Positions 1,124-61,920 of a DNA stretch of 64,000 bases are shown here, in pieces. A model generated the notes under the pieces. That model did no database searches. It worked only from the letters and a program-made list of their open reading frames with translations, and was not told where the DNA came from. Source of the stretch: Mesostigma viride (Eukaryota; Streptophyta; Mesostigmatophyceae; Mesostigmatales; Mesostigmataceae); contig RPFO01000253.1 of the NCBI GenBank assembly GCA_009746045.1, positions 5,241,145 to 5,305,144 on the forward strand. The letters run 5' to 3'. Position 1 is the stretch's first letter. Each line of letters begins with the position of its first letter. The position numbers were made by a program, and so were the translations under genes.

Positions 1124-1135
1124 CAACAGAGAGGC

Positions 1136-3168: not shown

Positions 3169-3641
3169 AGTTAGAGTGCGACGGGATATATTGCTTGAGA
3201 ACACTGTATGCTGTGAGCAATGAATTGCTTGGTTCATTAGAAAATAGGTTTACCCTTTATCAACGTTCCTCTCACTGGCTGCGCCGCCAGTGACCGTTGG
3301 GTGCAGACCGTTGGCCCGAGGCCGCACGATGACAGGTAGCAGTCTAGTCACTGCATCGTGTGATCACAGATCAATGCACGCTGCAGTACGGTCCCTATCT
3401 AGGATACTCTAGTACCGTCCAATGACAGGACACTACGTATACTGGGTACTGACATCTGTCACGTACCCCAGTACCCAAAGTACCTATCTAGGGAAACGTA
3501 TGCGACTCGACTAGCATTCCTATCTGCATAGCCCACGTGGTATTTATATTCACATACCAACGTAGGTTTACAAGGCTTATTCATACGTTGTATTCACAAT
3601 GCCTTTGAGACTTAGTCTACAGCAAAGCATGGAGACTAACT
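3169..3641 (-). repeat. 3' LTR of element E
   Basis: 473 bp with 6-bp inverted ends AGTTAG/CTAACT. On the element's own strand it is preceded by an A-rich tract ending ATACTGG directly before AGTTAG, comparable to the tracts in A, B and C, which also end in GG just before AGTT. Confidence 0.9.
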
Positions 3642-4015
3642 CCAGTATTGTTTTATTATTTATTTCTTAATGCAGGTCTGCACCCCCAACATTATTGTTA
3701 TTGTTTTTAAGTTGATTAGGGGTACAAAAGAGACATGGCTGGTTGAGCCAGGTTGGTTACAGCTGGCTGTTCTGGCCAGGTGTTATATTGCACATTAAAT
3801 AAGGTGTACACAGCTGGCTGGTTTGGCCAGTTATTGAAGCACACATTAAGTAAGTGGATACAAAGCTTGTGTCCTCAAGCTGCAAATGGATACAAATCTG
3901 ACCTAGCCAGCACTCACACCCCACAACGAATGTGTTGAATTTTATGGCGCCCAGCAGCTATCGCTGTGGTAAGGGGGTGTGGTGGTTGTGTACTGTGCTA
4001 TGGCCAGTCATTTAT

Positions 4016-4540
4016 TCAAACACTGACTCTGATATCATAGGGGTTCATGTTCTGAAAGAGGAGCTGGTACTGTTGGCCAGCAGCATCCCGCAGCTTCGTT
4101 AGAGCGTCTGCTGGGTTGTCCTCATCATCCACATGAGTCCAGCTGGAAAAGTAGGTTGCCTCCTGTTTGAGGATCACCCAATCCAGGTCAGTGTGGACAG
4201 CAGCAGAAACAGATTTCTTGGTTAGAAAACTGATCACAGAAAAGCTGTCAGTGTAGAGATGTGAGATAACATTGCATGTGCTGCCTGCCTGGGTTTGTAG
4301 CCAGGTGAGCATGTGCTGCAGGGAACGAGCATGCAATGCAGCAGACACCACAGCACGACATTCAGCTGAGTTGCTGCTGCCAGGTTTTCTGCGGTGTAGC
4401 CTGCTGTACCAGGAAGTGAGGGACATGTAATCTGACCTGTTGGTGAGAAAAAACAGCCCTGATTCCCGTGCCCCCATCTGATTGATTGTTCTGCTCTCCA
4501 TGGAGCTGTCCATGACACATTGGATGTGGATGTCTTCCAT
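4016..4540 (-). pseudogene. RNase H domain of element E
   Basis: 174 residues with CVMDSSMESRTI (first Asp), SSNSAECRAV (Glu), LYTDSFSVI (Asp) and DDEDNPADALTKL. The order and spacing match copia-type RNase H and the copies in A, B, C and D. The stop is at 4016-4018, about 375 bp before the 3' LTR. It is separated from the RT tail by frame changes between 4540 and 4610, so it cannot be made as one pol protein as it stands. Confidence 0.75.
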
Positions 4541-4604
4541 CAGATTCAGGCCATGGAGGATGAGGGGGGGCAGTCATTGACCAACTTCCTGATGTGACTG
4601 CATT

Positions 4605-4907
4605 TTACTTGACTAGAACATCATGGGTGACCCTGCTGATGACAGCTAAGGGAGCCCCACAGATGGCTGACCACCACCCCAGTTTGCCCTGAACAGTGGC
4701 ACACATGTGTAAGGGGAGGTAGTTGTCTTGCAGCAGATCTAGACAATCTTGGATATATTCTGCAGGAGGAGAGAGAGAGCAGACCCACTGATCTGGCTGC
4801 CTGTGCAGCTGCAACATGATGCCACAGAACTGGATGGGGGTTGTGCTCAATTCCACCTGTTTGCCAATCTCATATGATTCCTGGACCTGCTGAATAAATG
4901 TTTCCAC
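4605..4907 (-). pseudogene. RT C-terminal part of element E
   Basis: 100 residues (QVQESYEIGKQVELSTTPIQFCGIML ... CATVQGKLGWWSAICGAPLAVISRVTHDVL) that match the RT tail of C (38762-39421) and D. It lies in a different frame from the upstream pol ORF. The frame change falls just after the region encoding the catalytic motif; read in the right frame, 4920-4970 gives FVWHGDDQLI. This makes at least two frame breaks inside RT. Confidence 0.7.
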
Positions 4908-7389
4908 TCAGCTCTAGGCCCACAAATGAGTTGGTCATCTCCATGCCACACAAAGAGCAGCAGTCCAGAGGGGGTGGGTACAACAAAAAAGCATGGGTCC
5001 AGGTCATCATACGTGGCCTTGAGCTTTTTGAATACTTCCTCTGCTGAGTCTCTGAAAATTTTGGGGCACTGACAAGCCCTTCCACCCCAATGTTGATGAT
5101 AAGGTGGGGCTCATCAATGTAAGGTTTCCACACAGCTGGGGTGTCTACCACGTACACCTTCCCTTTCCACACAGATTCAGCCTTTTCTGGGTCCCCCCTG
5201 AGGAAGGCCCTTTTAATATCAGTGGCTTTGCAGACATAGTCTTGGCCTGCATTGAGGTTGTGGAGGAATAGGGAGAGCATGATCCTGAGTGAGGTTTGTT
5301 GCAACCCAGGTGTGTAGGTTTCCCCTTTTGGCAGTGTGGATGTCCCCTTTAATTCTGTGACACATGGTCTGGCATGGAAGATTGGGGAGCCCACTTTTTG
5401 TGGTTTTTGTTTGAGAACAAATTTTAATCTGAGCTTTTTGGCTCCCTCTGGCACGTCCCATGAAGGGGTGACAGGAGGTTTGTATTGAGGGTTTTTGGGG
5501 TTGGGCAGGACCCATTCCTGCCTGGCTTGGTGGACAATGGCCATCAGCCACTTGGTAAACCCTTTTTGTGTTTTGCATTCTTGTATGACGTGGGAGATTT
5601 GGTGGGGTGAGTGCATGGCTATGTCCCACTTACCCAGCCCAAAGGCTGAGGGATGGAGGAACTGGCTGTGCACTAACTTGTCCAAATCAGGGATCTCCCC
5701 TGGTGCATACTGAGTGTTGACTGCCTTGATGACAGCATCCATACCAGGGACAATACTGGAGAGAGGGATTTTAAAGTGGTCCAGAGGAACTGCACCCACC
5801 CCTGTGACACTGAGCTCATTAGCTGAGATAAGCACCCCAGGATAGGATACAAAAGGTTCCCCCAACAAGGTGTTACCAGAGTACCCCTCCACCACCTGGA
5901 AGGGTGTCTGAATACCAAGTATAGGGAGCATCACCTGTCCCACTACATCCAGTGAGCTTTGGCCTGAGAAATCCTGCACCCGTGCCCAAAATGAAGGTGC
6001 AATCTCAAGACCAGGGATGGCTTGTGCACTGATCACACTGACCTGTGCCTGAGTGTCTATTGCCAGGGTCCAGGGGTCCTGACTAGTGCACACAGCTGAG
6101 ACTTTTGCCAACCCTTCGGCCACAGCAGCTTGTTGCTTATGTGACCTGTGTAATGCTTGCAAGGCGACTGCCAATCTTGACCTCAGAGCGGGAGGGTTGG
6201 CAGACAATTTGGTGCCTTGGGGCTGAGCTAATGCTTCCAACCCAGCTACCTCGTGCCTGGTTAAGCAATCCCCAGGTTGTGAAGTGGGCCTGGCTTCACT
6301 GAGGGTGGAAGGGTTCACAGAGGGTGCTGTGGTGCTGTCAACAGCAGTAATTGGTGGCTCAGGGCTACTGCTGGGCATGCTGGAGTTGCCAGATAGAAGT
6401 AGTGAGTCCATGCTTAAAGACTCTTCCCCAGGCACGTCTGCCATGGGAGAATAATACTTCTTAATTCTATGACAGCTCACCCTGTGACGCTTCCCATTGA
6501 TATTGTGCTTGACCTCCACGGTCTTGCTGTTTTTGGTAAATCCACGGATGGTAACTGGACCTAGCCAAGTTCCAACCTTACCAAAGCTGTTTTCCTTGTA
6601 ATAGAGAACTTGATCACCTTTTTGGAATACTGGCCTGGGATGGGTTTTATCTTTTTCTGCCAGTTTTGCTGAGGTTTGTGCACGTGCAGTGTTGTACAGT
6701 GCTATCACCTCTGGGGGATATACACCTGCCTGCAGGCCTGCTGGGATTACTTCACCCCACTTGGCATGCAAGACAGGTCTCATGTTTAGGGTTGTGCACA
6801 TTTCATGACACCAGAGTGCCCTGTCACAATAGACCCCTGAAGTAGCATCCTTGGAAGGATTTTTGGCTAGTAGGGTTTTGACAGATCTGATGGTTCTTTC
6901 AATGACCCCCTGACCCTCATGATCTTCCAGCCCAGCAATCTCTATTGCTTCACACCCTTCCAGGTCAGTCAGACAAGAAAATTGTTGATCAAGCAAAATT
7001 CTGTCAACTGGGTAGAATCTGGGTAAAGCAATCATGAGTGCAACACGTAGCTGCCCTGCAGACATGCCAGGTAGGGGTTCCATTACTGTGAACCTGGACC
7101 ATGAATGTTTTAGGATCAGGTAGGGCTGGACATCTTTGTTGATGTGCATCACATCCCCCACTATCATGCCTCTAGTGGTGGAAGGAGTTGCAGTATGCCA
7201 TTTTTTAGGTTTGGGGCTGTTAAACTGACATTCTTGACAGTGTTGTCTAGCCAGTTTTACTGCATTCCTGAGTGGTTTTCCCATGCTACTACCCCCCAGC
7301 CGTCTGGCTAGTTCCTCAGCCACTGTTTCATGACCCATGGCTAGGCAGCAGCTGGTGAGCAAGCTCCTTGATATCAGTGGAGTTGTCAA
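4870..7389 (-). pseudogene. Pol of element E: integrase, protease-like module, RT N-terminal half
   Basis: 839 residues. The integrase zinc region has MGH at 18-20 and CQEC at 51-54; the first His of the HHCC set seems replaced by Leu. The integrase catalytic residues are D79 (GDVMHIN), D134 (LLDQQFS) and E164 (GVIERTIR), with 29 residues between D134 and E164 where copia and retroviral enzymes have 35. After a linker comes a retropepsin-like module with IDTQAQVSVIS (D445) and LLGEPFVSYPGV (508-519), the flap-to-ILG layout of aspartic proteases but with Gln for the usual Gly. RT follows with TDIKRAFLRGD (D724). The protease therefore lies after integrase. A one-base frame change near 7350 separates it from gag and the integrase start. 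Confidence 0.85.
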
Positions 7390-7727
7390 CAGTGGGGGTT
7401 AGTGCTTTTATGTAAGGTTCCAGTACAGGGTGTTGGGAGGACAGTAAGGTTGCTGCCTCAAAATCAATTATGCCCTGGCTGCCATCCCCAATGGTAATGA
7501 GATCATCATCCTCAGAGTAAGCAAGGTGAGAGAACTCACATTGATTTGGGTAGCGAGGCCTGTTGCAACGGCTGCCTGGAGCTGGCCAGGTTGTGCCTTG
7601 TGTAGTGGCAGCCTGGGCAGAGATCCACATTGTTGACCAGTGTAGGGTTGTGGTTGCACTGGTTGCGGCTGTGCCCCGTTTGGAAGCACCTCAGGCACCT
7701 GACCCTTCCAGGGTTGCCAGGTTGCCT

Positions 7728-7778
<51 letters not shown>

Positions 7779-7860
7779 GCCCTGTTGGGGCCGGTTGTTG
7801 TTGTTGTTACTGCCCTGTGAGGGCCTGTTGTTGGTATTGTTATTATTAATTAATTAATCG
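7328..7860 (-). pseudogene. Gag C-terminus with zinc knuckle, Asn run and start of integrase (element E)
   Basis: In one minus-strand frame this reads a run of about 16 Asn from the (TTG)n tract at 7730-7779, then RCLRCFQTGHSRNQC, a C-X2-C-X4-H-X4-C zinc knuckle as in retroviral nucleocapsids. It goes on to LCPGCHYTRHNL, a partial second knuckle also present in element C (VCPGCWEPRHPL). The frame 7328-7630 then gives an acidic linker (YSEDDDLITIGDG) and SSQHPVLEPY up to KELAHQLL, where one extra base shifts the frame into the integrase zinc region. Gag would bind the genomic RNA. Confidence 0.65.
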
Positions 7861-7893
7861 CAGCTTTTCTTGTTTGTTCGTTGTATTGATTGA

Positions 7894-8250
7894 GAGGACA
7901 GTATCTTTGCTGCCTCAAAACCCACCATGGTTTGGTAGCATTTTCGTTTGTTTGCTTGTAATGAGAGGACAGCATCTGTGCTGCCTCAACACCAACCATG
8001 GTTTGGTAACAGTTTCGTTTGTTTGTTTGCAGTGAGAGGACAGCATCTGTGCTGCCTCAACACCAACCATGGTTTGGTAACAGTTTCGTTTGTTTGCTTG
8101 CAGTGAGAGGACAGCATCTGTGCTGCCTCAACACCAACCATGGTTTGGTAACAGTTTCGTTTGTTTGCTTGTAATGAGAGGACAGCATCTGTGCTGCCTC
8201 AACACCAACCATGGTTTGGTAACAGTTTTGTTTGTTTGTTTGTTTTCTGT
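7894..8250. repeat. 71-bp tandem repeat, five copies, in the leader of element E
   Basis: Units start with 'gaggacag' at 7894, 7965, 8036, 8107 and 8178, exactly 71 bp apart. Each contains 'ccatggtttggta' and a 'cgtttgtttg' stretch. Copies two to five are near identical and the first is more diverged. They lie between the 5' LTR and the gag zinc-knuckle region. Confidence 0.9.
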
Positions 8251-9292
8251 TAGTGTTTCTTGTTATTGCCTCCCGGTGCTGCTTGAGCGTTAGCACCAGC
8301 CATGTCTTTACCCGCAAGTACATGCGTTTGGTAATGGCTTCTGCCACTACTGCATGCGTTATTGATTATGTGCGGCGGCTGGGCAAGCTCCATGTTTAGG
8401 GAGTTGACAGCAGTGGGTTTGATTAAGGGCCCTCAGCCCTGACATAGAGAGGATCAACAGTCTCCCTAGAGGGTAGAGGCTGTGCTGCCAAGAAAGCAAC
8501 AATACCCTTACACTCATCCCAAATAAAATGGGGAGATCTGCGTTCAAAAGACATGACATTCATTCAGATAAGTCACGTTGGGGTGGACGGAGATACTTGT
8601 CTCGTTTGCATATGCCGTCCAGCCCAGGCCGCCCACCGCCGGCGATGGGGATAGGCCAGGAGTGCTTTTATCACATAACAGCTGGAGCGTTTCTATGCTC
8701 CTCATGCTGCAGCGATAGCTTTCTGTTTGGTTATGATATGTTGAAAAGATAGCCACCGCTCTTGAGCATTATATCAGAGCATGCATGAGGAAAGAAAGCA
8801 ACGGACTTGCTTACGCTGGAAGCCCCAGGGGCCGGCGCGGGGCCGGTGCCTCCTGGGGGGTTGTTTTCCTGCCGCATTGCCGCCGCCATGGCTGCTCCAG
8901 CAGTGGGTGCTGCTGTCGCAGCCGCCGGGGAAGAGGGTTGGTCGGTGCCCCGTAGGGGAACCGGCTCAGCCACCGGCTGGCGCACAGGGGAGGGGGGTTG
9001 TTCGGACTGCCTCGCGGCAGCCGGACCCTCCACCTGGCTGGTATTGTCATGGTTGTTCTTTTGTTTTCTTTTTCTTTGTCTTCTTTTTTTTTTTTTGTTG
9101 TTGTTGTTATTGCATGCAGGCGCACCGACATCAGCCGGTGCCCTGTTGTCTGGCGGACGACGCTGATCATCATCGTCGTCCCCAAGATATAGTTTCTTTT
9201 TCTCTTTTTTTTTTTCTTTTCTTTTTTTTTTTTCAGTGCCGGTTTGAACCGTTGTTGAGTTTGATGTTGCTGAAGAGCGTTTATAAAATTCA
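8251..9292 (-). other. 5' leader or degraded gag of element E
   Basis: No continuous reading frame fits a capsid protein. There are long T-rich tracts at 9080-9110 and 9195-9235 (A-rich on the element's strand) and a GC-rich Pro/Ala-coding patch at 8810-9030. Gag capsid sequence must have been here or has been lost. I see no named domain. Confidence 0.4.
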
Positions 9293-9765
9293 AGTTAGAG
9301 TGCGACGGGATATATTGCTTGAGAACACTGTATGCTGTGAGCAATGAATTGCTTGGTTCATTAGAAAATAGGTTTACCCTTTATCAACGTTCCTCTCACT
9401 GGCTGCGCCGCCAGTGACCGTTGGGTGCAGACCGTTGGCCCGAGGCCGCACGATGACAGGTAGCAGTCTAGTCACTGCATCGTGTGATCACAGATCAATG
9501 CACGCTGCAGTACGGTCCCTATCTAGGATACTCTAGTACCGTCCAATGACAGGACACTACGTATACTGGGTACTGACATCTGTCACGTACCCCAGTACCC
9601 AAAGTACCTATCTAGGGAAACGTATGCGACTCGACTAGCATTCCTATCTGCATAGCCCACGTGGTATTTATATTCACATACCAACGTAGGTTTACAAGGC
9701 TTATTCATACGTTGTATTCACAATGCCTTTGAGACTTAGTCTACAGCAAAGCATGGAGACTAACT
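9293..9765 (-). repeat. 5' LTR of element E
   Basis: Same 473 bp as the copy at 3169-3641. On the minus strand it is followed by TGAATTTTATAAACGCTC, which resembles the TGCATTTATAAAAACTC that follows the 5' LTR of C. Neither starts with the TGG of a tRNA 3'-end primer site, so a different priming site, such as an internal tRNA part, is possible. Confidence 0.9.
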
Positions 9766-33037: not shown

Positions 33038-33558
33038 AGTTATTCTAGGGCTTCAGGCCTAGACTATCAGTACACGTGGCGTGGTCTCCGTTTCCCAAGT
33101 GGGATACGGACTTAGTCGGCAGTGTAGTACGCTGGACATATCTCTACTAGGATTTAGATCCGCACGTGCCATGTTGGGCACGTGGGTGCTAGATATTAGC
33201 GCTGAGATATGTAGGGATCACGCACGTGGGTATTCACGTGGTAGGGTTTGTGAGCTGTGATGCAGACCACAAGGTGGCTGCAGTGCTAGTCCTGTACGGA
33301 GGTCCTAGGGGAGGTCCAGGACCGACCACGTAGTGCGACTAGGCAGTCGTTGCCCGTGGGCGTTGTGTCAGTCCTAGCTGGAGTAGATCTAGCTGGATTG
33401 AGCCAGCACCTCATTGGTTAGCACTAGTGCAGGATAGCTAGGATACCCTATCCTACGTGCCCATGCAATCCAGCTTGGCAAGCTTGCATGGGTTGATATT
33501 ATGCCAGCCATTGCATAATCCAACACACGTTCGCATCCATTTGCATGAGTGCATAACT
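33038..33558 (+). repeat. 5' LTR of element C
   Basis: 521 bp, AGTTAT...ATAACT. It contains several CACGTG-like sites (around 33071, 33162, 33237). It is followed by TGCATTTATAAAAACTC, similar to the sequence after the 5' LTR of E. Confidence 0.9.
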
Positions 33559-33612
33559 TGCATTTATAAAAACTCTCACGGTTTTTATACCAATCTATCT
33601 ATCATCTTAAAG

Positions 33613-34878
33613 ATGTCGAACGTTCCCGATCACGATTCCTCTTCGGATTCGAGCCTGTCGCCATCGTCGGAAGACATGGACTACCGGGCGGCAGTGAGGG
33701 GCCGACAGGGCAGGGGTGAGCACGCTGGCAGCGATGCCGGCAGTGGTCGCTCGTCCTCAGACGAGGACCCGCGGTACCTCGACCAACTGGCGTTGAGGCC
33801 ACCGACATACAATGTCTGGCGGCCCGACGCGCCACCGGCTGAAGGGCAGCCCACGGCCCCTGAATTAATAACTGGGCCAGGGAGGGTGGTGCCAGTGCTG
33901 GGTGATATCCCGTCGGACGGCTACGACGAGGATGAAGACCTAGTAGACCTCGAGCTGCCTGAGGACAGGGCGCAGCGAGAGGAGCTGCTCCGCCGGGAGG
34001 CAGAGCGCCTTCGGCAGGAGGCCCAGCTCCGCAAAGAGCTGGAGCAGCAGCGCGAGCTGGAGGCTCAGCGCGAGGCTCAGCTTCGGGCGGAGAATGAGAT
34101 CGACAGGACAGCCCGAGTACTCGCGGAGCGGCAGCAGGAGCGGGATCGTGTGGCCAGGGCAGGCCTGCGAGCGGGACCAACCGGTGCGCGCGAGACGCCT
34201 CCTTACGTGCTTCGCAAGAAGAACGAGCTCTATACCTTTGCTCACAGGCGCACAGCGCGTAACTTCAGGCGCATGGCAGGGGAGGTGCTGCAGGAGACAG
34301 ACTCCTCTGTCGAGATGCAGCAAGGCGAGCGGGGGGAGGAACTGGTTCTTATGGACCCGGCCATGGTGGAGGCAGAGCGTCTGGCCAAGATAGAGTACGC
34401 TCGGCATTGCCAGCGGAAGGCCAAGAGGGCAATGGTGCGATCCATGGCGGAGAACAGTCTGGCCAGGGAGCGCGCAGCACGGGAGGCGCAGCATCGGGAG
34501 ATGAAGCGACTCCGTGCGAAGGCGCACGACGCAGCAGAGAAGACCCGGCGTCACCAGGCGAGGCTGGACGCGGCGATGAAGAGGTCAGAGGCGACACTGG
34601 CAACAATGGTGGGACCGGCGAGGCGGGAGCAGGAGGCTCGGTTGGCAAGGAAGAGCAGGAGGAATGCTCGTGCCTTAGACAGGCGTATGCGTAAGGAGGA
34701 GCGGGCTCTGCGCAGATATCAGGAGGCGGCCAGGACGTGGGCTCTGCAGGGAGAATTCGGAGATGCAATCCGGTTTGAGCGTGGCCTGGCGCCACATGAG
34801 CCGCTGCCGGAGGACGCGGTATGGACTTCATGCGTGCCCCACAGCCAGCAAGGGCCCAGCGAGGAACGGCCTTGTTAA
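33613..34878 (+). CDS. Coiled-coil first ORF of element C
   Basis: 421 residues from ATG 33613, intact, ending 67 bp before the gag ATG. N-terminus acidic and Ser-rich (DHDSSSDSSLSPSSEDMD). A segment PPTYNVWRPDAPPAEGQPTAPE follows near residue 63. From about 125 to 185 there is a strongly charged predicted coiled coil (REELLRREAERLRQEAQLRK...). A second Arg/Glu/Ala-rich helical stretch runs from about 255 to 385. I recognise no enzyme. Copia elements normally start with gag, so a separate intact ORF here is unusual. It could be a nucleic-acid-binding or packaging protein; that is a guess from charge and coiled coil only. Confidence 0.65.
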   Translation: MSNVPDHDSSSDSSLSPSSEDMDYRAAVRGRQGRGEHAGSDAGSGRSSSDEDPRYLDQLALRPPTYNVWRPDAPPAEGQPTAPELITGPGRVVPVLGDIPSDGYDEDEDLVDLELPEDRAQREELLRREAERLRQEAQLRKELEQQRELEAQREAQLRAENEIDRTARVLAERQQERDRVARAGLRAGPTGARETPPYVLRKKNELYTFAHRRTARNFRRMAGEVLQETDSSVEMQQGERGEELVLMDPAMVEAERLAKIEYARHCQRKAKRAMVRSMAENSLARERAAREAQHREMKRLRAKAHDAAEKTRRHQARLDAAMKRSEATLATMVGPARREQEARLARKSRRNARALDRRMRKEERALRRYQEAARTWALQGEFGDAIRFERGLAPHEPLPEDAVWTSCVPHSQQGPSEERPC

Positions 34879-34945
34879 ACGCGCGTGAGCGTGTTCGCGC
34901 TGGCGCAGACACACCCCACCCCCACCCCCCACACCCAAACACACC

Positions 34946-36284
34946 ATGCAGACCGACACGGACCTGGAGCTGGACCGCATCGCTGCACTACTCCACCAGG
35001 AGCTGGACGCAGCGGAGGCCAACCCGACCAAGCGGGCGCGGGCAGCAGAGGCAATCGAGCAACTGCTGAGGGCCGCCAAGCGGGTCCGCCAAGGAAAGTG
35101 GCAGGAGGGGTGTGGACCATCGTCTACGCCCCAGCGGTCGCATCCAGAGGAGGATGGTGACGAGGGGAAGGACGGGGGAGCACCAGGGGGAGGGGCACCA
35201 GCAAGCACCGGGGGTATGGCGGGCGGCAGCAACGCTGGAGCGACAACCCAGCAGCAGCAGCAGCAGCCACAGCATCAGCAACAGCAGCAGCAGCAGCAGC
35301 AGCGCGGCAGCAACAGCAACAGCAACCGCAGCAGCAGCAGCAGCAGCAGCAACCTCAACCACAAGCGACTGTCGCTGTACCACAGCGACCCAGGTTTGAT
35401 GCATCCCGTAGGGAAGATAGGATTACCTTCCCAGGTCTAGCTGAGGGATTTGTGCAGGAGGATGCACTTGAGTTTCTTTTCAAGATAGAACACTCATGGT
35501 CCCATGATAATATCCGTGATTGGTTTCCTGCTCTTAGGGTGTCTAACACGATCCACCAATCTGCACCTAGCATAAAACAAATGGTGCAGATGTATGAGAG
35601 GAGGGCAGCACGCCTGGGGCAGATGAGGTGCAAATCTTCACAGAATTCATAGCAGACCTAAAAGGGCTGTTGACCAAGGGGGAACACCTGCAGGCTCTCA
35701 AGGGGTTCACTGGTTGGCTTCATACAAAGTCAACAAGTCTGACTACGTACGGACAACAAACAGTATGTCCTGTACATAGACAGGGACGAGGAGTTGAAGA
35801 AGCTCAACTCTAAGTACCTGATCCATCAGTGGCTCACCAAAGCTGAGTTAGACAAGAACACCAACGCAGTTCTGCTGGCTGGCCTTAAAGACAAGTGGGA
35901 TGATTTTAGGGGGGCCATGTTGTTCATTCAGCAGAGCCTAGAACCCTTCTCCACTGTCAAGGAACCCAAGGTTAACAAAGTCCAAGGGGGGGGTAGTCAG
36001 GACGGTGCAGGTCCTAGCAGGAAGAAGCTCATCAAGGAGGTGGTAGCTCAGGTCAAGGCGGTGTTCAAGGGTCCCCAGCAAGGTAAGAAGGCAGGGGGGT
36101 CATCCAAGCAGCAGGGAAATCAGACAAGGGGGGAAAGGGGAACACAGGCAGTAAGGCAGGGCCCTCTCAGGGGCCTAGTCAAAAAGGTAAGCCTCACGAC
36201 TCCACCCTGTACTGCACCAGGTGCTCATGCAAGGGGCATGAGAGGGATGATTGCTGGAAGGGCAAACCCGAACTTGGATCTGAT
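34946..36284 (+). pseudogene. Gag of element C, frame-broken
   Basis: Starts at ATG 34946 with a short helical lead (DLELDRIAALLHQELDAAEANPTKRARAAEAIEQLL). A low-complexity CAG tract (35250-35355) follows, within which the frame changes. After it the capsid part reads PRFDASRREDRITFPGLAEGFVQ and EFLFKIEHSWSHDNIRDWFPALR. Further frame changes occur near 35625 and 35770. From 35794 the frame reads KKLNSKYLIHQWLTKAELDKNTNAVLLAGL, then a Lys/Gly-rich stretch. Near 36200 another frame gives YCTRCSCKGHERDDCW, a C-X2-C-X4-H-X4-C zinc knuckle, followed by a second partial knuckle VCPGCWEPRHPL. Confidence 0.65.
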
Positions 36285-37235
36285 GTGGATGTGTGCCCAG
36301 GTTGCTGGGAGCCCCGCCACCCGTTACCTGCAGGGGGACGCTGCAACAAGCCCAGGAAGGGAGCCTCGACGGGGCGCACCCCAAAACAAGCCAGCACTCA
36401 GGACGACTGTAAGTCTCCTGTACCCTGGTTTCTTAATGGCCGTGTACCCTCTATTTGCTCTGTATTGCCTGACAGTGAGGAAGTGGATTGGGACCTGGCT
36501 TATGACATGACGTTAGCACAGGTGGCCCAAGATCCCACTATAGCCTCCTTAGATGCAGCAGCAGATAAGGTTATATCCTATGCCAGGTTAGCCCAGCAGC
36601 TACACAAGGCAATGGGGCATGAGGCAGTGGCAGAAAGGCTGGCCAATAAAATTGATGGCCGTGACCTGGAACAGATGTGCAGGCATGTCAGGAAGCACTG
36701 TGAAGCGTGCCAACTGCATGCACCTAAACCCAAGAGATGGCATGTGGCCACCCCACCACTGGCTAGAGGAAAGCTAGTAGGGGATGTGATACACCTGGTG
36801 AAGGACACGGTGTATTACTTGGTCCTAAAAGATGCCTGGTCTAGGTTTGTGGTGATAGAACCCTTGCCAGGCATGGCCAATGAACAACTGCACAGAGCCC
36901 TGCTGATTGCACTAGCACGGTATCATCCTCAGGAAAAATTAATGCTGGATCAGCAGTTCACGTGGATACAAGATTATCCTGATCTGCCCAAGATAGACAT
37001 TGCTGGGGCTCAAGATCATGAACGCCAGGGGATGATTGAACGTACCATGCGTGCTATCAGGGACCTCATAAAGAAAAATGAGTCCAGGACAGCAGAGTCT
37101 GGGAGCTATGCTGATAGGACAGCGTGGGCAGCTGAGGTGTGCAGAACTCTGAACACCAAACCCTCATGTCTTCTCCTTTTGGTGAAATCACACCAATTGG
37201 CCTGCAATCAGGTAGCTACTCTCAGGAGGTACTAG
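36285..37235 (+). pseudogene. Integrase of element C
   Basis: 316 residues in one frame. The HHCC zinc region is complete: H107, H112 (LHKAMGH), C139 and C142 (HCEAC). Catalytic core: D167 (LVGDVIHLV), D222 (LMLDQQFTW) and E252 (GMIERTMR). There are 29 residues between D222 and E252. The frame breaks near 37160; the neighbouring frame goes on FGEITPIGLQSGSYSQEVLDHYN and FEVGDQVLYYREG to 37426, the integrase C-terminal part. Unlike E and D, C has no frame break before the integrase core. Confidence 0.85.
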
Positions 37236-37401
37236 ACCACTACAACACGCAAAGGCAACACTTGGCCAAGTTGCTGGCAAAAAAGGATAAAAGTAATGCC
37301 AGGCCTGTGTTTGAAGTGGGGGATCAGGTACTCTACTATAGGGAGGGGAAGGGAACAAAGCCCACTCTGGTAGATGGCATGGTCCAGCTGAAATCATCAG
37401 G

Positions 37402-38753
37402 TTGTCAGAAACAGGTGACACGGTGACTATTCAGCATCACAGAGAGCGAATGGTTGGCAAGCATAGACTGAAGCTTTATTACCCTCCTTTGGCAGACGTG
37501 TCAGGGGTAGAATTCTTGGACATGGATTCAGAGCCTCAGTCTGGTGGGTTGGTCTCACCCAGTGAATTGGCCAGGGACATAGCTGATGCAAGCAACACAA
37601 CCATAGACGCTCCTGTGTTCCTCAGTGGTGCAGCCCCACCACAGCCCAATGGTCCACTGGGCAGGAGGAACGTGCACTGGATGAGCAGCAGGTCGCTCCT
37701 CCCTCATCTCAGGAACAGCCACACGAAGCAGCAGATCCTGTTGTCCCCAGGAATAAATTTGCTGAGGCTCTAAAAGCTCTACATAGAGCACACACTGCCA
37801 AGGCACAAATGGCAGCAGGTGCAGCACAAGTCAATGCTGTGGGTGAATCTAACCAGGATCCCAGTATTCTGGCAGTAGACACACAGGCACAGGTGAGCAT
37901 CATCAGTGCACAAGCTGTATCTGGCCTAAGTCTGCAACGCTCGCCCTGGGCTAGAGTGTCAGATTTTTCAGGCAAAACAAAAATGGCAGTCAAAGGCCAA
38001 GTGCTAATTCCCATTCTGGGTGTGCCCACTCCCTTCCAGGTAGTAGAGGGCTACAAGGGGAATGCACTGCTGGGGGAACCATTTGTCTCATACCCTGGAG
38101 TAGTCATCTCAGCTGGGAGGTTGAGTGTGACTGGGGTGGGGCAGGTCACCCTGGACCATTTCAAAATTCCTTTAACACAGATCAGTGATGGCCTGGAAGC
38201 AGCCATCAATGCTGTCAACATAAAATACCTCCCAGGTCAGGAACCCTGTGTTGATTCCCTCATTCATTCTCAGAAGCTACACCCCTCTGCGTTTGGGCTT
38301 GGTAGATGGGACATAGCGTCCATGTCTCCCTTGTCCTATGATGATGTGGTCAAAGACTGTCAAACGCAGATTGGTTTTCTGAAATGGATGGAAGCCTTTA
38401 ACAGGGCTAGAGAGGAATGGGTTTGTCCTGATCCACGTAGCAAGTCCCAGGTACCACCTGTAACACCGATTGAGGCACTGCCACAAGGGGCCAGAAAGCT
38501 CAGACTGAAGTTTGTCTGCAAGCATAAACCCCAGGCAGATGGGACACCTCCCATTTTTCATGCCAGACCTTGTGTCACGGAGTTCAGGGGCTCCACTGAG
38601 CTAACAGAGGCTGAACTGTATACCCCTGGTATTCAGCAGACGTCTCTTAAGGTCCTGTTGGCCACTTTCCTTCACCATCTGAATGCTGGTAAGGACTACG
38701 TGTGTAAAGCCACTGACATTAAAGAGCCTTCCTTAAAGGCAACCCTGACATAG
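37402..38753 (+). pseudogene. Protease-like module and RT start of element C
   Basis: 37402-37773 is the linker (HRLKLYYPPLADVSGVEFLDMDSEP...). The frame from 37809 has ILAVDTQAQVSIIS (D24 of that frame), WARVSDFSG, LIPILGVPTPFQVVEGYKG and ALLGEPFVSYPGVVIS (87-102). This is the layout of a retropepsin with Gln at the third position of the active-site triplet. Then comes an RT N-terminal region (LHPSAFGLGRWDI, WMEAFNRAREEWV, RKLRLKFVCKHKP) to KATDIK, where one A is lost near 38725 and the frame ends at 38753. Confidence 0.85.
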
Positions 38754-39421
38754 CCCAAAAGGTGTGGAGGGGTCAAGTCTATGTGGTAAACACTCCCAAA
38801 GTCTGGTCTGGGGACATCAAGGAACCTCATCTAAGGCCTAACTTGGGGGTAGAAGGGCTTCAGTCAGCACCTAAAATTTTTAGGCTGTCTGCCCAAGAGG
38901 TCTTCCTGAAGCTGGGGGCCCAGTATGATGATATTGACCCTTGTTTCTTCACCATCCCTCATCCTGCTGGTATGATGATGTTTGTGTGGCATGGGGATGA
39001 TCAGCTCATTACTGGTCCCAGGGCAGCTGTGGAGGATTTCATTGCTCAAGTGTCTGCTAGCTTTGAATTAGGCAAGCAGCTGGAGCTGGGGAAAGATCCT
39101 GTCAAGTTCTGTGGCATCATTCTGAACCTGTTTAAGGAGCAGAAGGAGTGGGTGTGTTCTCTCAAAGCATCCCCTGAGTATGTCATGTCTTGCAAAGATG
39201 TTCTTCCCTCTGACATCACTCCTGATCTCTGTCCCACTATTAGGGGTAAGCTAGGTTGGCTGTGTGCCACTTGTGCTCCTCACCTGGCAGTGGTCAGCAG
39301 AGTGGATGATGATGTCCTCATGGAGGTAGGGTCTCGGGCTATTAAACAGGTGTTGCATGATGGCCCTCCCCTTATTCTTCATGCTTGGATCTGTTCCAAC
39401 CCATTCACATCACATGCATGA
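38726..39421 (+). pseudogene. RT catalytic half of element C
   Basis: Continues from the break as AFLKGNPDIAQKVWRGQVYV (motif A). It then gives LSAQEVFLKLGAQYDDIDPCFF and MMMFVWHGDDQLITGP, the catalytic motif with HGDD where copia has YVDD. IKFCGI-like KFCGIIL and GKLGWLCATCAPHLAVVSRVDDDVLME follow. It overlaps the RNase H frame near 39400, where the frame shifts again. RT copies the element RNA to DNA. Confidence 0.8.
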
Positions 39422-39903
39422 TGGACAGTTCCATGGAGTCACGGGTAGTCACTAAGGTACAAGCCAGAGAGGCAGGCCTCTTTATGTTGTCTAACCCCAC
39501 TGGCAAGCAGTCTTTGGTTTCCTGGTTCAGCAGACTCCACAAGCGCAAGGCAGTCAGCAGCAATGTAGCTGAATGCCGTGCTGTGGTCTCATCTGTGCTG
39601 CATGCCAGGTACTTGAACCATCTGCTGGTGTGGTTGCAGCATCAGGCTGGTAGTTATGCTGGTGTTAAATCTCATCTGCTGACTGACAGTCAATCCCTTC
39701 TCTCTTTCCTGGACAACCCCTTGGCTGTGCACACCGATTTGGACTGGATTGTCCTCAAGCAGGAGTGTACCTATCTGGAGTCCAAGACTCACATCCGAGA
39801 CCCTGACAATGCAGCAGATGCACTCACAAAAGTGCCACAGGCTGCAGGGCCTCAGTACAGAGTCCTATACACGCTGATGAACCCATATAACGGCAGAGGG
39901 TGA
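39385..39903 (+). pseudogene. RNase H of element C
   Basis: 172 residues: CMMDSSMESRVVTKVQAREAG (Asp), SSNVAECRAVVSSVL (Glu), LLTDSQSLLSFL (Asp) and IRDPDNAADALTKVPQ. All four catalytic positions of copia RNase H are kept. The stop is at 39901-39903. 372 bp of untranslated sequence follows before the 3' LTR. Confidence 0.8.
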
Positions 39904-40275
39904 AGTGCCTCAGCCTAGGGCTATTAGCACCAGATAGGAGGGTGGTCATGGGGTGGCAGGGTCTGAAGTGTCCCACCCGTAAGACTCTCTTTGCGTCATT
40001 AAAGCTTGAGGTCAGAAGGGTCCTCCTTTATTGATGGCTTGTTCTTTGTCAATAAAACGTGTGGTTATATTTTTCTGACAATGGTTTTCCTAACACAGGC
40101 ACCCAACCAGTGGGGATGTTGTATCCAACACGGAGGAGCTATGGGCGCTTTTATAAATGCATCTCTTTCAGTGTCCTGGTTGTCCCTGTGGGGAACCTTG
40201 CTCAGTAGTGGTTGGCATATGAGTGGGTTGTGGGAAGAGTCTTCCCCTCACTCCCCAAAGAAAAGTAATAATGGG

Positions 40276-40790
40276 AGTTATTCTAGGGCTTCAGGCCTAG
40301 ACTATCAGTACACGTGGCGTTGTCCCCGTCTCCCAAGTGGGATACGGACATGGAGTGTAGTACACTGGACATATCTCTACTAGGATTTAGATCCGCACGT
40401 GCCATGTTGGGCACGTGGGTGCTAGATATTAGCACTGAGATATGTAGGGACACGCACGTGGGTATTCACGTGGTAGGGTTTATGAGCTGTGATGCAGACC
40501 ACAAGGTGGTTGCAGTGCTAGTCCTGTACGGAGGTCCTAGGGGAGGTCCAGGACCGTCCACGTAGTGCTGTTAGGCAGTCGTTGCCTGTGGGCATCGTAT
40601 CAGTCCTAGCTGGAGTAGATCTAGCTGGATTGAGCCAGCACCTCATTGGTTAGCACTAGTGCAGGATAGCTAGGATACCCTATCCTACGTGCCCATGCAA
40701 TCCAGCTTGGCAAGCTTGCATGGGTTGATATTATGCCAGCCATTGCATAATCCAACACACGTTCGCATCCATTTGCATGAGTGCATAACT
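40276..40790 (+). repeat. 3' LTR of element C
   Basis: 515 bp, near identical to the 5' copy. It is preceded by AAAGAAAAGTAATAATGGG, a likely plus-strand primer tract. Confidence 0.9.
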
Positions 40791-51380: not shown

Positions 51381-52100
51381 AGTTGAGATTGAGAATGATG
51401 TTTGCAAGAATGCGGCCCTAGGTGCCTGGGTTTATTATCAATTTATATGTTTACAAGTCATGCGTGCAACCCCAAGATTGCGATAGGCCTTATCGACATT
51501 GCACCAATCACATCTCATGTGCATTTGCGATTTCCAAGAGGCACACTGAACTAGCGTTACGCCAGCGTTGCACAATGCTTCTAGACGCTTCTAGAACCAT
51601 TTACAAATATCCATTAGCAGGGAATATTGCCGTATTTTTCTGCCCGCTGAAGGGGTGTTTTATCTCATCAATCCTTGGCACGACTTCAACAGCCTGACCG
51701 ACAGTCAGTGCTCGACAGTCAGCGTGACCACTAATTATAATGCATCAACGTGGCTATACTGCCACCATGGTCATGCACACAAGCTGTGTGCAGCAATTGT
51801 GAGTATTGTTTCACAGATTTACATTCCATTATGCATGCACCAGTTTATACACGCATTTCGGTCATGCAACAGATTGCAACTCCAGCCCTTTCTTTTTTCA
51901 TGTGGCAATAGGACTGCGTACTCAAATCTGTAAGAACTACGGCCGCGCAGGCCTTGCCATCATGAACGCACCTTAGGCCCCACATGGTTTTGGAGGGTAA
52001 TCCCCAGCCAAACAAATTACACCAGAGCATCGCTACCGGGAAAACCTACCAAGGTAAAACCCGAGTCAAGGGGCCATTCACACTCCACGACATCTCAACT
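51381..52100 (-). repeat. 3' LTR of element D
   Basis: 720 bp. The ends AGTTGAGAT and ATCTCAACT form a 9-bp inverted repeat. The pol stop codon (52101-52099) overlaps the LTR border, so no separate purine tract exists between RNase H and LTR as in A, B, C and E. Confidence 0.8.
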
Positions 52101-55100
52101 AGTGCCGTGGCTGACCCAGCGACATATTGTTCATTTGGTGCCTAAGAAGAGTATACTGTGCCTTGGCGGAGCTATAGAGCTTGGTAAGAGCATCCGAGCA
52201 ATTCTGGTCGCCTGCCACGTGCTCGGTATGGAGCGCATCAGAAAATTCCTTCACCCGGAGGAAGTCAAGGTCTCTCGTGCGAGCGTAGGGGTTCTCAATG
52301 AAGTCCACCAGCGCTTGGCTGTCGGTGCGCATGACGCGATCGATGCGTGTGGTGAGACCGCCCAGCTTGAGGATCCAGCAGAGTAGCGCGTGGAAATACG
52401 CGAGCTCACTTGCAGCCTCGCAATACGCACGCGCCTCGGCGGTGTCCGACCCCACATACACACGGCGGTGGAGACGTGAGAACCACGCAAAGATGGAGGA
52501 TGGCGCAGATTGTTCAGCGTTTGAGATATAGCTAACAGCCGCACACCTACCACGCATCTTGGTGAGCACCCGCGCATCCAAAGAACTGTCACAATAAGCC
52601 CCTAGCTCGATGGGCTTGTCCCAGTCAACACCCTGCAGGACCAACCCCGGTGAGGCCTGCACATACTCAGCTACAACCGGGCGGGCCAACAAGCAGAGAA
52701 CATCGTCTGTCAACCGACTAAGGACAGCCAAGTCAGGGCTCGTGGTACACGCAAGCCAATTGAGTTTGCCACGCAGCGCACCACACTCAGAGGGAAGGAT
52801 AGGCCCAGTGCGGGCCATGACCTCCTTGACCAGGTCGGGGACATAGCTACCCTTAGGATGCAGCAACATGACCCACTGCCCTTGCTCATCGTGATCGAGA
52901 ATAGTGTCCATGCCCATGAAGGGCACGATCTTGCCCGGCTCCCTAAAGACGAGCTTGCCCACAGGGTACACTGAGTGCACGAGCGAATGGAACCACACAA
53001 TCCACTCCCGTGGCCCCAGGCAGTCACAGTCATCGGCATGCACGAAAACAAACACGAGCTCCCCCTTCCAGACACCAACAAACAAGGAGGGGTCCAGGTC
53101 GCTGTACATCATGCGTGCGCGGTTAAGTAGAAGGCGCTCTAAACTCTTGCGCCACGCCCGCGGCCCGGCCACGGTCCCATCCACAGCCTTCACCAACCTC
53201 ATGAACTTCTTGCCCACAATAGGTTCCCACATCTTGGGTGTCCTAACATACAGCGGTGTGGTGCCCTCCCACAATTTAGCCGTCTCATCTGAATCCCCGT
53301 TAAGGAAGGCCTTAGAAAAATCCAGCACCGCGGAGCCATGCGGCAAGCCTTTGTTGAGGCGCCCGAGATGAAAGCACACTAACAATCGCCAAGTGTCTTT
53401 ATTTAAGCCCGGGGCAGTCAGGGCTGAGGAGGGCAGGTCAGAAGATCCAGAAAATTCTAGCACCACAGGTCTAGCAAACTCTACTTTCCTGTCAGTGCCG
53501 GGAACCGGCTTCATCTGGAAGGTCCATTTGAAACGAAGCAACCGGCCATCCCTTGGGACTAGGTCCACTGGCTCCACACAACCCAGTCCTAACCATCGTT
53601 CCCCTGCAGCCAGCATAGCCCCTTGGGTATTGTCTAGCCCTTCCTCGGTTGAGACGTGCCTGGCAACATCATGGAAGGACATGGGGCTTTCAGTGGCAAC
53701 ATCGTGGAAGCTAATCCCCAAACTGTCAGGGGTGAGGGCTTTAGGGGTGAGAAGATCGCGGGCAGGAGGCAATTCAGAATCCTTGTACTCTACCCCTTTC
53801 ATGGCAGCCACCATAGGCAATGAGAGACCCCGAGCAGCGACATCGAGGGAAAAATTATTCAATCGCATGCAGCCAAACCCCGCTCGGGACAGCTGTGTGC
53901 TGCTCACTGTAACCCCGGGTAGCGTCAAGAACGGCTGTCCTAATAAGGCGGGCCCATCATACCCCTCTACCACACACATGGGCGTGTCTGCGCCGAGTAT
54001 GGTTAAGGGAAATTCCCCCAGGACCTTGTAGGACCCTGACCTAGCAAAATCAGTGACCTGAGTCCAATGAGAGGGCAGCAAAGGAAAGTCTACACAATTG
54101 GCCCCGATAATAGAGACCTGGGCCTGGGTATCAATGAGGAGCCCACAATTCAGCGCCCTAGCGGTTAACAAGGAAGAGATGACTGCAGTGCTCGGGCCCA
54201 GCTGAGGGGGTACGCCTGCAGTCTGTGGTGGGCGGCGAAGGGAGCCTAACCCCATGTTATTGTCCCGGCGCAGCCCTAGAACAATCTTGCTGAGCAACCC
54301 ACCACCCCGGCGAGGCTGACTAACGGCAGCCGGACCCTGGCTAACGGCAGGGGTAATGCCCTCCCTACTACCCTCGCGCAGGTCAGCAGGGGGCTCGCGA
54401 GCTAAGCTCTGCACATCTGCAGCAAGTGCCACCAGATCACCGTCCTCCTCAACATGCTCATCGTCCTCTACCTCCCGAGCTTCGGCAGACATTTGCATAG
54501 GGTCAGAGGCAGGCATGGGTAAAAGAGGGGCAATCACGTCACCTGGTGGAGGCCGCAAGAAGTTGTCCGCGTCCTCGTAGTAGTGCAGAAGGCGCTCCCA
54601 CGCACTTGTGTTCGGTTGATAGTGCTTGAGCTTGCTCCACGGGATGTGGTGTTGCTTGTCCTGCAAGGAAACAACGGCCTTGCGCACACTCCCATCCACG
54701 GACACTACCGTGGCTGGACCATTCCACTGTCCCCTCTTTCCAAAGGGGCCCTCTTTATGCACCCAAACCAGGTCTCCTACACTATAGGCGGTAACCGGCC
54801 TACGTGTATCCCTTCGTACCAGGTTGGCAAATCTACCCTGCAAATGGCGTGCCCACTCCTCTTCTATCTCTGGTGGGTAGTGGCCGTGCTGCAATCCCTC
54901 AGCTGTTATCACCACATTGTGAGAAGGAATGGACAACAACACACGCCGATTAAGGCATGCACAAATCCGCAACGCCCACATGAGGCGGGCTGCGTATGCT
55001 GAAAGGGATGCATCACCTTGTCTCCGTGCAGCTTGCTTGTATTCTTGCACGGCACGCTCCACTATACCCTGACCAGTGTGGTCCTCACGCCCAACTGTCT

Positions 55101-55314
55101 TGAGGCATTCAAATTCAGGCTGGCCCTCTAGACACGCGAACTGCCTATCCATCTGTATTGACTCGAGTGGTGAGAAAAAGGACGAAGAGACATCAATGGC
55201 TTCTGCCAGGTCGGCGGCTTCCATATGACGCAAAGGAACTACAGCTACGTTGTGAGCATATCTATCTATTGCAATAAAGTATGGCATGTACGTGTGCCCA
55301 GAACAGCACATCAC
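52099..55314 (-). CDS. Pol of element D: integrase core, protease-like module, RT, RNase H
   Basis: 1071 residues without a stop. Integrase: D56 (IQMDRQFACL) and E86 (GIVERAV), 29 residues apart; the first Asp lies in the preceding frame (GDVLFW). Then WAVGDLVWVHK-like integrase tail and a long acidic linker. Protease-like: LLIDTQAQVSIIG (D395), ADTPMCVVEGYDGPALLGQPFLTLPGV. RT: AVLDFSKAFLNGD (D665) and LVFVFVHADDCDCLG (D761), with HADD replacing YVDD. RNase H: AYCDSSLDARVLTKMRGR, GSDTAEARAY, MRTDSQALVDF and VAGDQNCSDALTKL. This is the best preserved pol of the lineage and the reference for its domain order. Confidence 0.9.
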   Translation of the reverse strand: MMCCSGHTYMPYFIAIDRYAHNVAVVPLRHMEAADLAEAIDVSSSFFSPLESIQMDRQFACLEGQPEFECLKTVGREDHTGQGIVERAVQEYKQAARRQGDASLSAYAARLMWALRICACLNRRVLLSIPSHNVVITAEGLQHGHYPPEIEEEWARHLQGRFANLVRRDTRRPVTAYSVGDLVWVHKEGPFGKRGQWNGPATVVSVDGSVRKAVVSLQDKQHHIPWSKLKHYQPNTSAWERLLHYYEDADNFLRPPPGDVIAPLLPMPASDPMQMSAEAREVEDDEHVEEDGDLVALAADVQSLAREPPADLREGSREGITPAVSQGPAAVSQPRRGGGLLSKIVLGLRRDNNMGLGSLRRPPQTAGVPPQLGPSTAVISSLLTARALNCGLLIDTQAQVSIIGANCVDFPLLPSHWTQVTDFARSGSYKVLGEFPLTILGADTPMCVVEGYDGPALLGQPFLTLPGVTVSSTQLSRAGFGCMRLNNFSLDVAARGLSLPMVAAMKGVEYKDSELPPARDLLTPKALTPDSLGISFHDVATESPMSFHDVARHVSTEEGLDNTQGAMLAAGERWLGLGCVEPVDLVPRDGRLLRFKWTFQMKPVPGTDRKVEFARPVVLEFSGSSDLPSSALTAPGLNKDTWRLLVCFHLGRLNKGLPHGSAVLDFSKAFLNGDSDETAKLWEGTTPLYVRTPKMWEPIVGKKFMRLVKAVDGTVAGPRAWRKSLERLLLNRARMMYSDLDPSLFVGVWKGELVFVFVHADDCDCLGPREWIVWFHSLVHSVYPVGKLVFREPGKIVPFMGMDTILDHDEQGQWVMLLHPKGSYVPDLVKEVMARTGPILPSECGALRGKLNWLACTTSPDLAVLSRLTDDVLCLLARPVVAEYVQASPGLVLQGVDWDKPIELGAYCDSSLDARVLTKMRGRCAAVSYISNAEQSAPSSIFAWFSRLHRRVYVGSDTAEARAYCEAASELAYFHALLCWILKLGGLTTRIDRVMRTDSQALVDFIENPYARTRDLDFLRVKEFSDALHTEHVAGDQNCSDALTKLYSSAKAQYTLLRHQMNNMSLGQPRH

Positions 55315-55672
55315 CTACGATTTCCCCCTTTCTCGCAGGTGGATGCTTTACATGGTGGCGAGAAGGCTTGGGGCCCGACGATTGACATTGTGGACAGTTT
55401 TCGTAACACTCACGACATGCTTCCAGCATTGGCGCCCCACCAAAAGCCCTAGCAAACTTGTAAGCGTTTGTTCCATGGCCAAAGAAGATGTGAAACCGAG
55501 ACGCACAGGCATACTTGAAAATTGGATCTGTATTGATCAAGTTTAATATTGCCTTAACATCCGCAGCATCGGCCATAAAACTGCCTACATCGTCTACTGC
55601 CAGGAGCCTCCTATGCTCCATAGCGCTGTCCTGCCCTGGGGCCTTCAGTTTTCCTGAGCATTGCGCACCCAC
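55262..55672 (-). pseudogene. Integrase zinc region of element D
   Basis: 136 residues ending at 55262, overlapping the pol frame by 53 bp. HHCC region: FHIFFGH (two His, five apart), then CRECYENCPQC. It goes on to GEIVGDVLFW, which holds the first catalytic Asp. To join the core a one-base shift near 55295 is needed. Either this copy is mutated or the element uses a frameshift; E and C have no break at this place, which favours mutation. Confidence 0.75.
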
Positions 55673-56085
55673 GTGAACCGCTGGCGCCTAATAGGCCCAG
55701 CCTTGCCAACATTGTCCGCCCTGGTTGGCAGCAGTCCGCGACCTGCAAAACCGGGCCTTGTGCCCTGGCTTGTGGCACTTGCCACACAGGTTCGTCCCCA
55801 ACGGGAAAGCCTTGTTGGCCTTGCAGCCTGCAGGTCTCGCGGGTGTGACCAGTCCCCTGGCAGCGAGGACACTTCAGGCGCCCGTCACCGGCGCCAAAAA
55901 CGGCCCTGATGGCAGGGCCATCGGCATTGACTGCTGGCGTCGGCTTCACGGCACCCTTGCCGGCCAGCTCCTGAGCAGCGCCACCGAGCGCCATGATCTC
56001 GCGGATGCAGGCGAAAGCAGCAGCCTTGCTCGCCAGCTTCTCCTTGGTCAGGACGGACGCCAGACTCTGCACGGTGCTTTCTGAC
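55673..56085 (-). pseudogene. Gag C-terminal part of element D with two zinc knuckles
   Basis: From the MITE border the frame reads STVQSLASVLTKEKLASKAAAFACIREIMALGG, then LKCPRCQGTGHTRETC, a C-X2-C-X4-H-X4-C knuckle. After a 7-base repeat of TGCAGGC type the frame changes and gives LCGKCHKPGHKARFC, a second knuckle. Joined to the N-part across the duplicated 8 bp, the frame is continuous (GAMSE|STVQ), which shows that the MITE hit an open gag. No protease motif lies between the knuckles and integrase. Confidence 0.75.
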
Positions 56086-56459
56086 TAGGGCTGGCACATC
56101 CGCCGCATACCGAACACGGACATGTTCGGGCGGATACCGAACATGTGCGGTGTTCGGGTCGGCAAAAATGTTCGGCCGAACATGTGCTGTTCGGGTTCGG
56201 GTCACCTGGAAACTTTCAGAACATGTTCGTGTCCGTATTCGGGTCACCCTGGGAACCGGGCGAACATGTTCGCCTCTGACCCGGTACCGAACATTTCTGG
56301 CGGAATCCTTGTAGTACCATCCAGTGATCCGACTCGGCAAAGATTCTCTGATGAAAAGGCCTTAGATTTTAGTCCGCCGACACGCTGGCAAGAGCAAAGC
56401 TGTTGTACGGTTGTAGTCTGTAGAATTGTCTAAGCACGACCGGACTAGTTCAGGTAATG

Positions 56460-57374: not shown

Positions 57375-57465
57375 TGGTATCGGAGGTTTGATGCCTACCC
57401 TGCATTTGAGGAGCAGAGACATTCATCTGACTACCCCAGAGACAACACCCAGACCCAGATCAACC

Positions 57466-60706: not shown

Positions 60707-60715
60707 TAAGGGGGG

Positions 60716-61624: not shown

Positions 61625-61920
61625 TAATGATTACGTAATGATTAATAGGATATCATGTATTTAAGGAAAAGTGACAACAAACTATGTATAGTTTCTCACT
61701 TATTATAATTTATGAATTGTTCGTGTTCGGTAAAATGTTCGGGTAATGTTCGGGTTCGGGTTCGGGTCACTTGACCCTAAACAGTACATGTTCGTGTTCG
61801 TGTTCGGGTCACCTGGCAATGTACCGAACATGTTCGTGTTCGGGTTCGGGTACTCTCCCAGGTGTTCGTGTTCGTGACCGGGTCGAGAAAAGACCCGGAT
61901 GTGCCAGCCCTATTTCTGAC

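Follow-up and report, generated by a model that had tools for sequence, protein, structure and literature searches.

The position of the integrase (INT) relative to the protease (PR) and the reverse transcriptase (RT) is a character that separates the families of long terminal repeat (LTR) retroelements. In the available part of PMC2774666, integrase positions are tabulated as five states, none of which is gag-INT-PR-RT, and PR is said to precede INT in every known Ty1/Copia genome as well as in Gmr1. The fifth state is that of PVCV (Petunia vein clearing virus), with INT upstream of gag; since INT is then also ahead of PR, the same part of this source lists one precedent for that arrangement. 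It further gives LLS as the motif of copia proteases, with very few exceptions, and ILG as predominant in the others, and it describes copia integrases as lacking the GPY/F module. For fungal LTR elements, the available part of PMC3248453 names the protease as the fastest-evolving pol domain. Here, we describe three elements (D, E, and C) with an integrase, a retropepsin-like module, and an RT in this order, in a 64-kb stretch of DNA from contig RPFO01000253.1 (64,000 nucleotides; the window). The DNA comes from Mesostigma viride, an early-branching streptophyte green alga.

Results

Domain order in elements D, E, and C

All three elements, D, E, and C, indeed have the order integrase, module of ~137 residues, copia-type RT, and RNase H (RH). 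In each of them, the CCHC zinc knuckles are succeeded by the zinc site and core of the integrase with its W-x-G-P tail. A variable linker separates this tail from the module, after which come RT and RNase H. The catalytic Asp, Asp, and Glu of the integrase are read in IVGDV or LVGDV, DxQF, and QG-ER. In D and E, the module leads into RT without a change of frame, and this junction can be aligned across D, E, C, and the public gene model P0002. E and C have paired LTRs with target duplications and thus are LTR retrotransposons; since these 5-bp duplications are exact, misassembly does not explain the order.

An earlier note on this DNA, made from the letters alone, had described the D domains as lying in a single open frame. 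This applies to the later integrase core, module, RT, and RNase H, but the integrase zinc site and the first catalytic Asp are upstream in another frame, so that the D copy in the window does not have a whole integrase in one frame. The claim that E and C show the same order was borne out: E runs in one frame to the first part of RT, with the remaining RT and RNase H in other frames, and C is split over several frames.

With Pfam, the integrase core was seen in C (Table 1), with no match in the E frame or in the public gene model P0001. RVT_2 matched D and one C frame (Table 1), P0001 (E value, 3.1e-4), and P0002 (2.7e-3), with no match in the E frame, while RVT_1 gave no row in the frames searched (D, E, and C frames, P0001, and P0002). 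By these RVT_2 matches, all of them below the curated cut-off of 31.6 bits, the RT appears to be of the copia type.

Relatives in public data

The D frame is 99% identical, across 99% of its length, to P0001 (jgi Mesvir1 Mv26004), a 1157-aa gene model with INT through RH in a single frame. Therefore, a copy open from INT to RH is present in the public gene set. P0002 (816 aa) shows 49% identity to D over 72% of D. A search with the whole D frame returned two matches among 7994 scored candidates, and one with profile A1 returned four among 7993, including two shorter gene models (P0003 and P0004); all were Mesostigma gene models, and in both searches only the candidates with the most shared words were scored. 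Profile A4 had no match among 7999 candidates; since P0001 and P0002, which belong to the profile itself, were missed too, we take this search as uninformative. Scanned twice with the same two peptide patterns, viral contigs yielded 14 pattern stretches and no relatives.

Predicted fold of the module

Structure models were obtained for the C module and, with lower quality, for the E frame, using partly shared alignments. The C module was predicted with a pTM (predicted template modeling score) of 0.70. Among PDB structures, its best 50 of 349 matches and the best 50 of 744 aligned structures were all retropepsin-like, with no Foldseek E value below 1e-3. The DT and LLG motifs of the module were in register with those of the retropepsins Ddi1 and ASPRV1 and of retroviral proteases. 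Against a viral structure library, 216 matches with an E value of ≤10 and none of ≤1e-3 were found; retroviral and other aspartic-protease proteins made up much of the upper part of the best 50 of these 216, with an unrelated structure at rank 15 and such structures common past approximately rank 34. The E model had an overall pLDDT (predicted local distance difference test score) of 47.5 and a poorly predicted INT core. When it was compared with VIA, the rows were taken by Tudor/SH3 folds matching the integrase tail; this comparison is therefore uninformative on the module, and missing proteases there are no evidence.

Profile searches recorded little of this. The best Pfam protease match to the module was PF13975 in C (E value, 0.011; below cut-off), and no protease match was returned by single-sequence searches with the D module or by NCBIfam and PHROGs scans. 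Structure prediction was the check for a pepsin-like fold named in the earlier note, and its outcome was retropepsin-like for the C module and, in the weaker model, for E. We conclude that a retropepsin fold of the module is well supported by prediction.

Conservation of the module

A profile built from the four modules (D, E, C, and P0002), which thus includes the window members, detected C, E, and D in the six-frame window with E values of 4.8e-67, 5e-66, and 2.8e-63, respectively, and nothing else significant. In a shuffle control, the module scores were 232 (D-E), 212 (D-C), and 446 (E-C), while the top scores of 500 shuffles were 53, 51, and 58. The D module is 40% identical to the E module and 39% to the C module; identities of the motif-bounded core are 51% (D-E), 51% (D-C), 69% (E-C), 49% (D-P0002), 48% (C-P0002), and 38% (E-P0002). 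Identities in the INT core, the first part of RT, and RNase H are, in this order, 37, 33, and 31% (D-E), 28, 30, and 36% (D-C), and 54, 67, and 62% (E-C). The module is thus the best-conserved measured domain for D versus E and D versus C, whereas D-P0002 shows the opposite trend, with RT (66%) and RNase H (62%) exceeding the module, and E-P0002 slightly so (RT, 41%). Exchange of modules between lineages is a conceivable cause of this unevenness.

Substitutions were analyzed with the NG86 method, in which synonymous divergence (dS) was saturated in all comparisons with D. Between E and C, the module had a proportion of nonsynonymous differences (pN) of 0.238, a dS of 1.6, and a ratio of 0.18, and the INT core had a pN of 0.319 and a ratio of 0.14. 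The pN was 0.278 in the stretch after the module into RT, 0.289 in RNase H, and 0.43 in the linker, with dS saturated in all three. The E-C ratio of the module shows purifying selection.

Active site and search for another protease

At the active-site position, Asp-Thr-Gln is found in four of the four distinct sequences (D, E, C, and P0002) instead of Asp-Thr/Ser-Gly, a departure not remarked on in the earlier note. The second motif has the expected pattern hydrophobic-hydrophobic-Gly, reading LLGQPF in D, LLGEPF in E and C, and ILGQNF in P0002; Asp, Thr, and the loop Leu-Gly are invariant. D, E, and C encode Asp-Thr-Gln with differing synonymous codons, so the Gln is likely kept by selection.

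A D-[TS]-G-A motif was absent from all six frames of the window, and the hydrophobic-x-D-[ST]-G motif was absent from the coding-strand frames of D, E, and C. From the last zinc knuckle to the integrase zinc site, D has ~84, E ~98, and C ~116 aa. No retroviral-type protease family was detected at an E value of ≤10 in 20 upstream or integrase-region open reading frames (ORFs); chance rows came from ORFs of low complexity and included Presenilin (0.65), PepSY_2 (1.3), and PFF1_TM (9.6). As far as gap lengths, ORF scans, and the motif scan reach, the earlier statement that no protease lies between the gag knuckles and the integrase holds; likewise, profile, ORF, and motif scans of the window copies detected no protease upstream of the integrase in D, E, or C. 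The note had named such a protease, in intact copies, as evidence that would speak against its reading.

Coordinates and further features of the window

The features of the three elements are listed in Table 1.

Table 1. Positions of the features of elements D, E, and C in the window
Feature	Position	Strand	Remarks
D open frame: later INT core, INT C-terminal domain, linker, module, copia-type RT, RNase H	52099..55314	-	1071 aa
D retropepsin-like module (residues 372-510)	53785..54201	-	Module hidden Markov model, 2.8e-63; profile includes D
D DTQAQVS, active-site position, Gln replacing Gly	54112..54132	-	
D LLGQPF, psi-loop (ILG-type) motif	53929..53946	-	
D integrase zinc-binding HHCC stretch, upstream frame	55385..55492	-	Motif by eye
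D IVGDV, first catalytic Asp of INT, frame just upstream of the 1071-aa frame	55307-55321	-	
D gag CCHC zinc knuckles (two), in two frames	55745..55871	-	PF14787 E 0.023 for one, below cut-off
D QWNGP, GPY/F-like motif, integrase C-terminal domain	54715..54729	-	Assigned by eye; label after the available part of PMC2774666
D copia-type RT (RVT_2, residues 586-762)	53029..53559	-	PF07727 E 2.7e-4, 21.1 bits, below cut-off 31.6
D copia-type RNase H stretch, ends SDALTK	52129..52686	-	tblastn links to E, C, and the A and B tails; type by eye
E LTR element	3169..9765	-	LTRs 3169-3641 and 9293-9765, identical over 473 bases; 5-bp duplication AGTAC on both sides
E open frame: INT, module, first RT part	4870..7398	-	842 aa; predicted fold
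E retropepsin-like module	5719..6126	-	DTQAQVS 6037-6057, LLGEPF 5851-5868
C LTR element	33038..40790	+	LTRs 33038-33558 and 40276-40790 (96% identical); 5-bp duplication AGGAC on both sides
C single frame, gag zinc knuckle (36213-36254) into integrase core	36087..37235	+	PF00665 rve E 1.9e-4, 22.1 bits, below cut-off 32.6
C retropepsin-like module	37809..38216	+	DTQAQVS 37878-37898, LLGEPF 38067-38084; PF13975 E 0.011, below cut-off
C remaining RT and RNase H, two frames	38723..39900	+	RVT_2 E 0.14

Instead of TG...CA, the LTRs of E and C carry AGTTA...TAACT at their ends, and the bases after their 5' LTRs (TGAATTTTATAAACG and TGCATTTATAAAAAC) are unlike a tRNA-CCA primer site. E has tandem 71-base repeats at 7820-8242, upstream of the zinc knuckle. 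In C, a 478-aa charged, coiled-coil-like ORF (33442-34875) without a Pfam match is located ahead of gag.

D is bracketed by an identical 72-base repeat (51381-51452 and 62479-62550) that starts with AGTTGAG and has no target duplication; its right copy continues into TAACT, the sequence with which the LTRs of E and C also end. This repeat may represent very short LTRs or a truncated end. Nested in D is a canonical copia (56459-61625) with TG...CA LTRs, the duplication TAATG, and the primer site TGGTATCGGAGG, which we take to be of the initiator-Met type. Its protease motif is DSAASSH (58456-58476), with Ala replacing Gly, in a frame with a Pol_BBD match (1.6e-12).

RNase H tails with ~40% identity to that of D are present at 1130-1762 (+) and 15890-16435 (-), within long inverted repeats; judged by sequence, these A and B tails are remnants of further elements of the D, E, and C kind. 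B, which had been put forward as a decayed case with the module motif DTNAQVS, was rejected as a fourth case: its module, with this motif at 18300-18320, reached only an E value of 1.8 with the module profile, and the second motif is in a different frame. Finally, an 814-aa ORF at 44145-46589 is leucine-rich-repeat-like by eye; it contains a tandem array of 18-base units (44934-45443) as well as a poly-Glu tail.

Discussion

E and C, which are LTR retrotransposons, and D, which likely is one, encode INT, a module with a predicted retropepsin fold, RT, and RH in this order, and we consider it reasonably probable that the module is their sole protease, cutting itself, INT, and RT-RH from the polyprotein. 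In our reading, D, E, and C form a copia-RT lineage of the order gag-INT-PR-RT-RH, likely with no protease but the module. That the module is active is suggested by the conserved Asp, Thr, and loop and by the absence of a further protease motif. With Gln in place of the catalytic-site Gly, it would likely be an unusual working protease. Inside the particle, dimerization of the module would bring the two Asp residues together, catalysis would proceed despite Gln at the usual Gly position, and the upstream integrase and the downstream RT-RNase H would be freed along with the module itself. Candidate cleavage sites are in the long, variable linker that precedes the module and in the stretch before RT. 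Such an arrangement could have arisen in a copia-type element by loss of the protease ahead of its integrase, with an ILG-type protease acquired at a position between INT and RT. Tentatively, we propose a distinct LTR lineage in Mesostigma that may combine a copia-type RT-RNase H, a gypsy/retrovirus-like integrase, and an intervening ILG-type protease active with Asp-Thr-Gln.

The main and serious rival, which we nevertheless judge unlikely, is that the module is a retropepsin past catalysis, its site blocked by Gln, and serves in dimerization or as a spacer, while cleavage is performed in trans by the protease of another element or of the host, or does not take place. Two observations favor such a dead scaffold and weigh against an active module. 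Gln replaces Gly in all four distinct sequences, so that catalysis is not to be assumed, and the degree to which the module is conserved is unusual among proteases, unlike the fast-evolving proteases of fungal LTR elements (PMC3248453, available part). However, Asp, Thr, and the loop Leu-Gly are invariant in all four sequences, while drift would be expected in a dead site. Moreover, since no other D-[ST]-G motif was found in the coding-strand frames of D, E, and C, processing would then depend wholly on outside enzymes. We prefer an active module because Asp and Thr would be unlikely to stay fixed in a dead domain with synonymous sites saturated.

It is very improbable that a true protease was missed upstream in gag and that the module is an extra second copy. 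The module itself is barely seen by profiles, and a more divergent upstream protease could therefore escape them. Against this stand the coding-strand frames, in which no hydrophobic-x-D-[ST]-G was found, the distances between knuckle and integrase, of which at least that of D is short for a retropepsin, the lack of a second significant module match across six frames, and the 20 ORFs with chance low-complexity rows only. It is similarly improbable that the module is a small beta domain of another kind whose DT motif arose by chance: no family match is above cut-off and D alone has no protease match, but profile, Pfam ranking, and the C and E models, with their partly shared alignments, agree on the fold, with the motifs in register. 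That decay, nested insertion, or misassembly produced the order artificially, as frame breaks in all three window copies and the copia nested in D might suggest, can practically be dismissed. The order is shared by three diverged elements, of which two have paired LTRs and target duplications, and by a 1157-aa gene model; in D and E, the module passes into RT within one frame, and this junction can be aligned between D, E, C, and P0002.

A lineage that departs from the order rule, with an apparent mixture of copia and gypsy domains, would imply that pol modules were reshuffled more freely than in the two-family picture. The Asp-Thr-Gln motif poses the biochemical question of whether a retropepsin can work without the Gly of the triad.

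According to the earlier note, no described lineage is known to have this order, and the five INT states listed in the available part of PMC2774666 support this. A described INT-PR-RT element was not found in the open-licence literature, including PMC2774666, PMC3587641, PMC3248453, and PMC3465219, which was covered mostly at the abstract level, with subscription papers and Repbase-type databases outside the search. Among known systems, the retropepsins Ddi1 and ASPRV1 and the retroviral proteases (clan AA) resemble the module in predicted fold and in the register of the DT and LLG motifs; the module differs from them by Gln for Gly in Asp-Thr/Ser-Gly and by its location inside the polyprotein. 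PVCV, a caulimovirus with integrase, also has the integrase ahead of the protease (PMC2774666, available part), but upstream of gag, whereas here it is located between the gag zinc knuckles and the module. Gmr1, a Ty3/gypsy element with copia-like order, shares the shift of the integrase ahead of RT (PMC3587641, available part); its integrase is still downstream of the protease, according to the accessible text of PMC2774666, and its RT is of the gypsy type. With Ty3/gypsy elements, D, E, and C share the ILG-type protease loop, a protease directly before RT, and, judged by eye, perhaps a GPY/F-like integrase tail; unlike in Ty3/gypsy, with RVT_1 and the integrase last, here the integrase is ahead of the protease and the RT is of the copia type. 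Like Ty1/copia, they have RVT_2 rather than RVT_1, the integrase before RT, and RNase H last, ending with ADALTK or SDALTK. They depart from the Ty1/copia order PR-INT-RT-RH by a module after the integrase, from its LLS motif by LLG/ILG, and, by eye, possibly from its integrases by a W-x-G-P tail, the GPY/F module being reported as absent from copia (both features according to PMC2774666, available part). As judged from their sequences, D, E, and C fit copia by RT only; we do not file them as Ty1/copia but as a variant LTR retrotransposon.

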